Assembly (NCBI RefSeq): GCF_910596095.1 | Contig: NC_056544.1 | Coordinates: forward strand, 7,642,655 to 7,706,654 | Length of the DNA stretch: 64,000 nucleotides | DNA from: Thunnus maccoyii | Lineage: Eukaryota; Chordata; Actinopteri; Scombriformes; Scombridae | Direction of reading: 5' to 3' | Shown here: one piece after another, positions 14,733-35,231 of the stretch | Numbering within the stretch: the stretch's first letter is position 1 | How the letters are laid out: each line of letters opens with the position of its first letter | Program-made: the position numbers and the translations under genes | The notes under the pieces: generated by a model | What the model saw: the letters and a program-made list of their open reading frames with translations, nothing else | What the model was told of the DNA's origin: nothing | The model's database searches: none

Positions 14733-17700
14733 TCACCCGAGCAAATCATCCATCCAGCTACTGTCTGTGACAGCATTTTCTGCTGCCTGCTGAGTATTGT
14801 TGTTTTCAGAAACTAATAGACTGCCCACAAAGGAATTTGCATCACTTGGCTCGGACAGTGGTAGCAACTGTGGTTCTGATGCAAAGATGTCAACAGCAAA
14901 AAGATCTGCCTGAGCTGAAGGAGCAGCAGTAGAAATTGTATCTGAACCAAGAAAATCATTCAGTGAATTAGGAGTGGCTGGAGTACACGGCAGCACTGTA
15001 AAAACATCTGCACTGCTTGAGATTTCGCTGACTCCAAAGATATCATCAGGAAAGGCGGACAGCTGGTTTGTGGAAGCATCAGCTCCTCCTTGATCAGACA
15101 CACTAACGGCAGGTGACGGAGTGAACAGACTGCCATTTGAGCTGAATATGTCAAAATCAGTGTCCTGCTCTTTTGTCTGGCTATTTGCAGTGAAAGGACT
15201 TGGAGCTTGACTCTCATTTTGGTTGACAGGTGCTGAGTTGGGATCAATCAGCTGATCTGCCATGCCAAGTGTCACCTCACTTTTGACTGATCCAGGTTGA
15301 GAGTCAAGCAAGCTAAGACTTTCAGCAGAAGCCTCAGCAACTGATCCAGGTGGAGGGTCGAGCAGGCTAACACTTTCAGCAGAAGCATCAGCAACTGATC
15401 CAGGTTGAGCGTCGAGCAGGCTAACACTTTCAGCAGAGGCATCAGCAACTGATCCAGGTTGAGAGTCAAGCAGGCTAACACTTTCAGCAGAAGCATCAGC
15501 AACTGATCCAGGTTGAGTGTCGAGCTGGCTAAGACTTTCAGCAGAAGCATCAGCAACTGATCCAGGTTTAGAGCCGAGCAGGCTGAGACTTTCAGCAGAG
15601 GCATCAGCAACTGATCCAGGTTGAGAGGCGAGCAGGCTAACACTTTCAGCGGAAGCATCAGCAACTGATCCAGGTTGAGTGTCGAGCTGGCTAAGACTTT
15701 CAGCAGAAGCATCAGCAACTGATCCAGGTTTAGAGTCGAGCAGGCTGAGACTTTCAGCAGAGGTATCAGCAACTGATCCAGGTTGAGAGGCGAGCAGGCT
15801 AACACTTTCAGTGGAAGCATCAGCAACTGATCCAGGTTGAGTGTCGAGCTGGCTAAGACTTTCAGCAGAAGCATCAGCAACTGATCCAGGTTTAGAGTCG
15901 AGCAGACTGAGACTTTCAGCAGAGGCATCAGCAACTGATCCAGGTTTAGAGTCGAGCAGGCTAAGACTTTCAGCAGAAGCATCAGCAACTGATCCAGGTT
16001 TAGCGTCGAGCAGGCTAACACTTTCAGCAGAAGCATCAGCAACTGATCCAGGTTTAGAGTCGAGCAGGCTGAGACTTTCAGCAGAAGCATCAGCAACTGT
16101 TCCAGGTTGAGAGTCAAGCAGGCTAAGACTTTCAGCAGAGGCATCAGCAACTGATCCAGGTTTAGAGTCGAGCGGGCTAAGACTTCCAGCAGAAGCATCT
16201 GCAACTGATCCAGGTTTAGAGTTGAGCAGGCTAACACTTTCGGCAGAAGCCTCAGCAACTGATCCAGGTTTAGAGTCGAGCAGGCTAACACTTTCAGCAG
16301 AAGCATCAGCAACTGATCCAAGTTTAGAGTCAAGCAGGCCAACACTTTCAGCAGAAGCATCAGCAGACAAAGCTGTATCCCTAACAGTAGCTGAAAATGC
16401 AGGGGTGTTCACAAAAATCTCCTGAGATTCGGATGGACCAAAAAGATCAGAGGAATCTAGTGGGGGTTCTTGGTTGAGATCGAAAAGTGCTCCATCATTA
16501 AGGTTTCTTCCTCCTAGGTCAGGTGCATCAAGTAATTTATCTGGCTTTTGAACACATTCATCTGTATTTATCTGAATGACTTGTGGTTCAACAGAGACAG
16601 AACTGATGCTGTCTACAAAAATACTATCATTAAATGGGTCGCTCAAACTCGCATCAACACTTTTCTCAGCTATTGACTGACAGACGGACTCCTCAGACAC
16701 TTGGTTCTTTGATTGCACAGTAGAAGGAGGATCTTTAGAGTCAGCTATTCCAGGATCAGTGACAGACAGGCCTATAGTCTCCCTGCTCTGATCATCAGTT
16801 GGATTTATATCAGTTTGTGATGGACCTGTCAGGTCATCACCTATTTCACTAGTTGATGTCTGGTCCAGGTTGGATGGTTCTGTATATGTGATTATAGCCT
16901 CATCTTTGTTACTTTCCAATGTGTTGGGGTCAGAAGAAGCTGACTTGTCCTTCATATCTTCCCCAGATTCTTGTTCCAGAGGTGGAACTTGAAGTGTGTC
17001 GCCTTCCTTTTGCTTCTCTTTTGTAATGGCCTCCTTTACCTCCTCTGTTCTCTTGTCACCACCATGTATGTTGTCATTTCTTTTACCATGTGCTGTCGAT
17101 TTCGTGGTGTCCTCAGTCTTCTCTGAGGATGACTGAAATAGTCTTCCTAGGAGTCCACCACTAGGTTTGGCTTCTGGTTTCTTGGCCTCTTTTGGTTCAA
17201 CCTTGTTTGTTTTTTCATTTCCACTCGATGTAAAGAGTTTTGACAAAGGACTCTTTCCTTTGGACCAGGATCCCAGTTTGACCTTTGTCTTTTCAGCCTG
17301 TTTTACAGAACCCTTGAAAGAATTTGTTTTTGCAACAACCTTCTTCTGACTGCCATAATTTTCTTGCTCATTTGCTGAGTTGGGCTTTTCAAACTTATTT
17401 TCATCGCTTTCAAGACTGGCTTCCTCTTTGGTCATTTGTTTTGCAGGACTGTCTGGATCACCTCCATTTTCTGAGTTTCTTGGAATGACATCCAGTTTCT
17501 CAGATGGCTCTTGATGTGTCACACCTTCTTGAGCTGAATTGTCACTTGTCATTTTAGTAAAACTTTGGGTATGAAGTGATTCCTCAACCTTCTCTACAAC
17601 TCCATTTAGAACTGTAAAACTATCTTTGTCACCGGTCTGTGGGATCTTTTGACTACCCTCCACCTTAACACCATGCTCTGTGTTTAATATATTGGTTGTC

Positions 17701-35231: not shown

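Follow-up and report, generated by a model that had tools for sequence, protein, structure and literature searches.

In zebrafish xirp2a and xirp2b and in mouse Xirp2, skipping of the giant Xin exon gives rise to a LIM protein (PMC3280289 and PMC10259482, in the parts of these papers available to us), and the LIM domain together with the C-terminal region of short XIRP2 is needed at actin gaps in stereocilia (PMC10259482, same part). XIRP1 (Xin-alpha, Cmya1), in contrast, is presented in the available part of PMC3280289 as one large exon with no LIM domain in both mammals and zebrafish, the zebrafish gene in a study using 5' RACE. The human EPLIN class of LIM domains is given as LIMA1, XIRP2, and LIMD2, with a conserved 22-amino-acid Eplin motif right after the domain (PMC3305314, in the part available).

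Here we analyze a 64,000-nucleotide stretch of the Thunnus maccoyii genome (contig C12, 7642655-7706654; "the window"). The data make it highly probable that this teleost xirp1 carries a complete EPLIN-class LIM cassette absent from published XIRP1, that the locus has two products, with the Xin unit perhaps nested, and that it derives from a duplicated EPLIN-type gene. Among the publications listed in our literature search, the titles and the beginnings of the abstracts mention neither xirp1 LIM exons, nor a repeat-less second xirp1, nor XIRP1 as a sister of the EPLIN class; automated annotations may already chain some of the exons.

LIM-gene exons surround the Xin exon

The initial annotation had joined seven exons flanking the Xin exon into one frame of 1,608 codons with a complete LIM domain. 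The seven-exon join is real: the spliced model measures 4,800 nt, all six of its introns are GT-AG, and it contains no internal stops. The length, however, is 1,599 codons plus the stop (i.e., 1,600), the gap of eight probably reflecting one differing acceptor. The least certain boundary is the exon-2 acceptor, where position 34199 breaks the frame with the exon-1 donor and 34188 keeps it. The features of the locus are as follows.

35116..35231, minus strand: LIM-gene exon 1, first coding exon in the model (MSLRRTQSL...SVSQLVQR), ends in phase 2
33894..34188, minus strand: LIM-gene exon 2, begins LSRSRSM, ends in phase 0
32757..32835, minus strand: LIM-gene exon 3, 79 nt, phase 0 to 1
29054..29205, minus strand: LIM-gene exon 4, phase 1 to 0, corresponding to the YQAAV exon in xirp2a and lima1
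28782..28823, minus strand: possible LIM-gene exon 5, 42 nt, phase 0 to 0, optional, encoding 14 residues
20653..27678, minus strand: Xin exon of xirp1, an open 7-kb exon with its own ATG at the splice acceptor and its own stop
20385..20390, minus strand: AATAAA, possible poly(A) signal of the Xin transcript, 263 nt past the Xin stop
19004..19134, minus strand: LIM exon 1, phase 0 to 2, first half of the LIM domain
14733..18717, minus strand: LIM exon 2 and giant C-terminal exon, 1,328 codons with the stop, containing the second half of the LIM domain, an EPLIN-type flank, the WPP motif, and the 54-bp repeats
18423..18431, minus strand: WPP motif GKLKVSWPP, common to the C-terminal tails of xirp2a and xirp2b
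15286..16365, minus strand: 54-bp (18-codon) unit repeated 20 times in tandem within the C-terminal exon
14677..14682, minus strand: AATAAA after the LIM stop

By its sequence, the locus is an EPLIN-like gene comprising N-terminal exons, a LIM domain, and a WPP tail, in which a giant Xin exon occupies the intron before the LIM exons. As first annotated, the exon at 29054 ends in phase 0, and the Xin exon (27678) and the LIM exon (19134) both start in phase 0.

Exon 7 has 1,327 open codons and, taken over its full length, is frame-specific (0.215 bits per codon versus -0.176 and -0.149 in the other frames), with a coding score over its first 150 nt that is not unusual (fraction 0.14 of the null). 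Another frame outscores the predicted one in five of the six short exons (1, 2, 3, 4, and LIM exon 1), LIM exon 1 scoring negative. For these five exons, the support comes from likeness to a second copy of the locus on contig C21, described below, and to known LIM domains.

In a search of the whole genome (782 Mb, 54 contigs), the N-terminal exons of the window gave nothing significant outside it and only two places at E values up to 1, one at E 0.2 (containing two stops and likely due to chance) and the other, at E 0.59, the C21 locus. Comparison with provisional human XIRP2 and EPLIN N termini gave E values of 0.02 to 0.3 over single pairs, and tblastn detected no sense-orientation match between the window N terminus and either xirp2 locus at E up to 5.

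Identity of the Xin gene

The Xin exon has the acceptor TTTAAAG followed by ATGGCTGAC, matches the Pfam Xin family PF08043 at E 7e-130, and contains 20 repeat stretches at E up to 5. Its Xin repeats and QQRQ..EL[KR]RL start are as in XIRP1, as is its tree position. The other Xin loci found in the genome are at C24:16.54 Mb (xirp2a) and C11:17.48 Mb (xirp2b). In a five-row Xin tree, the window groups with human XIRP1 (100/100) and the C24 and C11 loci with human XIRP2; both human sequences were provisional, non-database versions, and the XIRP1 row fills 41% of the columns. By BLAST alone, the best human match of the window is XIRP2 (805 bits) versus 482 bits for XIRP1, but the XIRP1 piece used is shorter, and hence the xirp1 identity rests on the tree and not on the BLAST score. 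The placement with human XIRP1 eliminates xirp2 as the identity of the locus.

To the right of xirp1, the window contains a CSRNP gene, a GRASP gene, and a WD40 exon by Pfam, identified to family level since Pfam does not separate CSRNP1/2/3, GORASP1/2, or WDR48. A sodium-channel gene follows at C12:7.741 Mb, 35 kb beyond the window end. We take the XIRP1 neighborhood on human 3p22 to comprise CSRNP, GRASP, WD40, and sodium-channel genes as well. Because CSRNP and sodium-channel genes also flank xirp2a and xirp2b, these neighbors are support for XIRP1 and not proof. The tree, with fitting neighbors, upholds the original designation of the locus as xirp1.

The difference from XIRP1 in print, i.e., one large exon and no LIM domain (PMC3280289, available part), lies in what is around that exon: the Xin product is encoded by a single exon here too, but a second coding set of six or seven LIM-gene exons surrounds it.

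LIM domain and C-terminal exon

A profile search bore out the complete LIM domain claimed at the outset, with Pfam PF00412 matching the joined product at E 8.4e-8 over all 58 positions. The best PDB relatives are LIMD2 (2lzu, E 1.8e-29) and EPLIN (2d8y, E 1e-26), followed by CRP1 at E 5.4e-14. The domain can be regarded as intact and of the EPLIN type. Directly after it, a conserved block of 20 residues aligns with EPLIN, LIMD2, and the paralogues; it sits where the Eplin motif would be expected. Further downstream, K..V.WPP recurs in the tail of the window LIM product and in those of xirp2a and xirp2b, in each case 66 to 75 residues past the GNYD[EN]G start.

Differences among 19 of the 54-bp units fall on codon positions 1, 2, and 3 in numbers of 29, 10, and 18, with no third-position excess. 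The C21 copy has no long C-terminal tail, its frame ending 15 residues past the conserved HKTRW. Given the absence of the tail at C21 and of third-position bias, the repeat part is without clear protein-level constraint; the length of the array (15286-16365) is perhaps polymorphic. The LIM tail (14733-18717) also carries six D[PLI]F motifs versus 0.5 in shuffles, and the product ends in SWMDDLLG. Both resemble adaptor-binding peptides of endocytic proteins.

A second xirp1 copy on contig C21

A region of about 13 kb on C21 (12104182-12116900) contains, on one strand, sequences like exons 1, 2, and 4, a Xin-exon homologue, and both LIM exons. Its LIM locus was found independently by the LIM search, 9 kb downstream of the N-terminal match at C21:12.1047 Mb and on the same strand. 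The counterpart of exon 1 is 45% identical over 38 amino acids (E 0.008 within 17 kb) and that of exon 2 is 37.5% identical over 80 (E 8e-5 within 17 kb). For exon 4 the likeness is short, SALYLSK/SALYLSR (E 0.04 in 3.8 kb), and for exon 3 a targeted search found a candidate of 79 nt with the phases of window exon 3, whose assignment relies solely on its splice sites, phase, and length, sequence likeness being absent. The 42-nt exon 5 has no convincing counterpart at C21. The LIM exons are 66% and 76% identical to the two in the window, with LIM exon 1 measuring 131 nt in both. Joined, the C21 exons form one open frame with end phases 2, 0, 1, 0, and 2, matching the window at all five; exon lengths differ by multiples of three, those of exon 3 and LIM exon 1 being equal. 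Since the same upstream-exon counterparts are paired with LIM exons at C21, we discarded the notion that the LIM exons belong to an unrelated neighbor gene.

The Xin-like open reading frame of C21 (1,626 amino acids) aligns with the window Xin exon at 28.7% identity over 1,679 columns (E 1e-148). It retains the ATG at the acceptor, the YQQRQ..EL[KR]RL start, and, toward its C terminus, a block with 63% identity to residues 1950-2100 of Xin protein P0001, and an AATAAA follows about 40 nt past its stop. Of the Xin repeats, a single sub-threshold one is left (15.4 bits; cutoff, 20). A CSRNP gene lies 77 kb from the locus. We take C21 to be the putative teleost-duplication partner of xirp1, one which would have shed almost all Xin repeats and kept the rest of the exon together with the LIM exons. 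All teleosts examined are stated to have lost one Xin-alpha (PMC2478706, in the part available). This picture changes with C21, where the repeats are gone and the gene persists. The PMC-listed survey on the lost teleost Xin-alpha is said to be that of Grosskurth 2008.

Over 89 codons of the LIM exons, window and C21 differ at 35 of 219.5 nonsynonymous sites and 41 of 47.5 synonymous sites (pN 0.16, pS 0.86), a ratio to be read only as an upper bound because synonymous sites are saturated. Such values plainly point to strong purifying selection on the LIM exons of both xirp1 copies. They also bear on whether the LIM exons might be a decayed relic or a chain of chance open frames. The short exons that are not frame-specific on codon usage, the negative LIM exon 1, and the 54-bp repeats lacking a third-position excess would all fit such an explanation, but the LIM exons are intact, pN is far below pS, one exon is open over 1,327 codons, and the exon-end phases agree with C21 at five of five positions. 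We regard it as very improbable as a whole, and the excess of pS over pN between the two copies rules out relic status for the LIM exons.

Exon layout shared with xirp2a, xirp2b, and lima1

The arrangement is an old one, in agreement with the initial annotation: in xirp2a, xirp2b, and the C21 copy, a Xin or Xin-like exon is followed by the same two LIM exons. Those of xirp2a and xirp2b are split at the same point and in the same phase as in the window, and their tails carry WPP. The correspondence extends upstream. Exon 4 of the window (SIRDRSALY), which matches the "DR.A.Y" exon of EPLIN and XIRP2, has as counterparts the xirp2a exon with SVKERLAMYQAAV and the lima1 exon (contig C3) with SLREKMAKYQAAV, all three starting in phase 1 and ending in phase 0. 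The YQAAV-type exon of xirp2b also ends in phase 0, the motif being partly lost; an FEKG exon of lima1 (C3) has this end phase too. We determined the phases in xirp2a, xirp2b, and lima1 by visual inspection of the DNA. A search of all six frames of the window with S[VIL][KR][DE]R.A.Y, a pattern devised once the sequences were known, gave a single hit, in exon 4. The motif and phases of exon 4 and, at C21, the occurrence of exon 1 and 2 counterparts before the LIM exons support the assignment of the upstream exons to the LIM gene.

The XIRP2-like cassette proposed from the start, with LIM exons after the Xin exon and phase-compatible with the upstream exons, is thus found in the window, in xirp2a, and at C21. 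Likeness to the short LIM isoform of XIRP2 (Xin-beta, myomaxin) covers the position of the Xin exon ahead of the LIM pair, the split of that pair, the upstream YQAAV exon, and the WPP tail. There are also differences. The long isoform of mouse XIRP2 extends into the LIM exons, which it reads in a different frame (PMC10259482, available part). In the window, the Xin exon has its own ATG and stop with an AATAAA after it, and the LIM tail comprises about 1,280 amino acids with 20 repeats.

EPLIN (LIMA1) and LIMD2 share the class of the LIM domain, lima1, like xirp2a, has matching phases at its key upstream and LIM exons, and LIMD2, a short protein, is the best solved relative. The EPLIN/LIMD2-type loci differ in that none of the 39 Xin-repeat matches in the genome is on C3, C4, or C18.

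Two products and their promoters

The Xin exon looks terminal because it has its own stop with an AATAAA after it in both copies. Used as a terminal exon with its own poly(A) signal, it would give a Xin-repeat protein; skipped to the LIM exons, it would leave a largely different LIM protein. From its published relatives, the former may be an actin-bundling, filamin-binding muscle protein. The latter would be EPLIN-like or similar to short XIRP2, by analogy with which it can be expected to bind actin and to go to strained or damaged filaments.

How the two are transcribed can be read in two ways. In the first, the locus consists of two overlapping independent units with no transcript joining them, an upstream EPLIN-like LIM gene and, within its intron, xirp1 as a nested gene that has a promoter and terminator of its own. 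We give this slightly better than even chances. Consistent with it, the Xin exon starts at an ATG and ends with its own stop and then AATAAA in both copies, zebrafish xirp1 is in print as one large exon (PMC3280289, available part), and intron 3 is rich in E-boxes with a CpG maximum and a good donor, features which allow a putative element to be delineated.

31442..31990, minus strand: candidate internal promoter and untranslated first exon for Xin (E-box at 31626, MEF2-like site at 31988, CpG maximum near 31600, donor GTGAGT after 31442)

Intron 3 has six CAGCTG E-boxes versus 0.6 in mononucleotide shuffles. It has one MEF2 site versus 0.77 expected and no CArG box, and the intron-3 regions of the window and C21 share no conserved noncoding block. 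Xin transcripts would, with somewhat better than even probability, start at such an internal muscle promoter in intron 3, which would make Xin a nested unit and leave the upstream exons mainly to the LIM product. Against the nested arrangement, both xirp1 copies retain phase 0 ahead of the Xin exon, xirp2a and xirp2b of this genome have no ATG at the apparent Xin acceptor, and the 5' exons of xirp2a and xirp2b are shared with the LIM isoform in print (PMC3280289, available part).

In the second reading, one promoter serves both products in the manner of XIRP2, with shared 5' exons spliced either into Xin, giving an N-terminally extended protein, or beyond it to the LIM exons. Phase 0 is found at each of the exon-4, Xin, and LIM boundaries in both the window and C21, and XIRP2 works so in print. 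Yet the ATG lies exactly at the acceptor in both copies, where an extended protein would have no need of it, and published xirp1 is a single exon. We consider a shared promoter a real but rather doubtful possibility, and lean toward the nested unit.

EPLIN-class loci and sodium-channel genes

The genome LIM search gave 15 matches, with seven strong loci, on C12 (the window), C21, C24, C11, C3, C4, and C18, and a weak match on C9 (E 9.5e-4, 31%). The C3 locus is taken as lima1 from its N-terminal exons compared with a provisional human sequence, and that on C18, from its RKQHKELWA flank, we take to be LIMD2-like. Sodium-channel matches are on eight contigs (C24, C11, C12, C20, C3, C4, C21, and C18), and all seven strong EPLIN-class LIM loci lie on seven different contigs of these eight. 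The distances between LIM and sodium-channel genes are about 80 to 100 kb (C12, C24, and C11), 0.55 Mb (C3), and 6 to 13 Mb (C18, C21, and C4). CSRNP genes are within 0.1 Mb of four of the LIM loci (C12, C21, C24, and C11) and 2.6 Mb off on C4. The sole sodium-channel contig without an EPLIN-class LIM match is C20 (7.18 Mb), the partner of the LIMD2-like C18 locus having perhaps been lost; the sodium channels of C18 and C20 would be SCN4 type.

If the loci are treated as independent and the 24 chromosomes as equal, the probability of this co-location by chance is 8.8e-6. Independence does not hold for teleost-duplication pairs, and hence about four ancestral linkages carry the weight, with a rough chance of 8e-4 for four of four on an assumed number of about 13 ancestral chromosomes. 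With seven LIM loci on sodium-channel contigs, XIRP1, XIRP2, LIMA1, and LIMD2 have the appearance of sisters produced by genome duplication. All four would have descended, through the vertebrate and teleost genome duplications, from one EPLIN-type gene next to a sodium-channel gene, and the xirp1 LIM would be a fourth member of the EPLIN class.

A LIM-domain tree with xirp2 and LIMA1 was proposed in the initial annotation. In our nine-row tree, window and C21 are sisters (100/99) and lie nearest human LIMD2 (83/84), not xirp2. Nor did C3 and C4 join with human EPLIN, or C18 directly with human LIMD2; the tree has 89 columns, and its deep branches were not relied on. In a tree of eight sodium-channel rows, C12 did not pair with C21, which grouped with C18 (54/61). 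A second tree, with the long C18 and C20 rows dropped, the rows trimmed, and the C21 acidic run cut, paired C12 and C21 (100/99), the evidence for this pairing being the selected row set together with the shared string SYMTNPNLT..VPIAPGESDVEF.

Our reconstruction, which we hold to be more likely than not, is that the four genes are duplication sisters of an EPLIN gene that had an intronic Xin exon before the first vertebrate duplication. Under this reconstruction, xirp1 would be the missing fourth LIM member, C21 a repeat-less Xin-alpha, and the Xin exon now a nested gene with its own promoter and terminator. The loss of the LIM half in mammalian XIRP1, as originally suggested, would follow from published descriptions only (PMC3280289 and PMC3305314, in the parts available).

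If true, XIRP1 and XIRP2 would be the Xin-carrying half of the EPLIN family and not a stand-alone "Xin" family, the origin of the XIRP2 LIM isoform would be explained, and a single locus would make two largely different actin-associated proteins. Zebrafish carrying a stop mutation in the Xin exon of xirp1 lack a phenotype (PMC3280289, available part). Should zebrafish have the LIM exons, such a stop might spare the LIM product, which would bear on the absent phenotype.

Other features of the window

An Rfam search of the window gave zero matches at gathering thresholds. A C-terminal exon with L.PE..RKELP.S occurs three times between 298 and 12323 (near 0.5, 6.9, and 12.3 kb), in what looks like a tandem array. 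The exon resembles that of SLC22 transporters; one piece of the array tried against Pfam (2837-3283) had no hit. Open stretches at 12861-13406 resemble the final part of a LINE reverse transcriptase. A pentanucleotide ATGTT/AACAT array of about 25 copies (33611-33736) lies in intron 2 of the LIM gene, and a minus-strand open frame of 173 amino acids (42164-42682) lies between xirp1 and the CSRNP gene.
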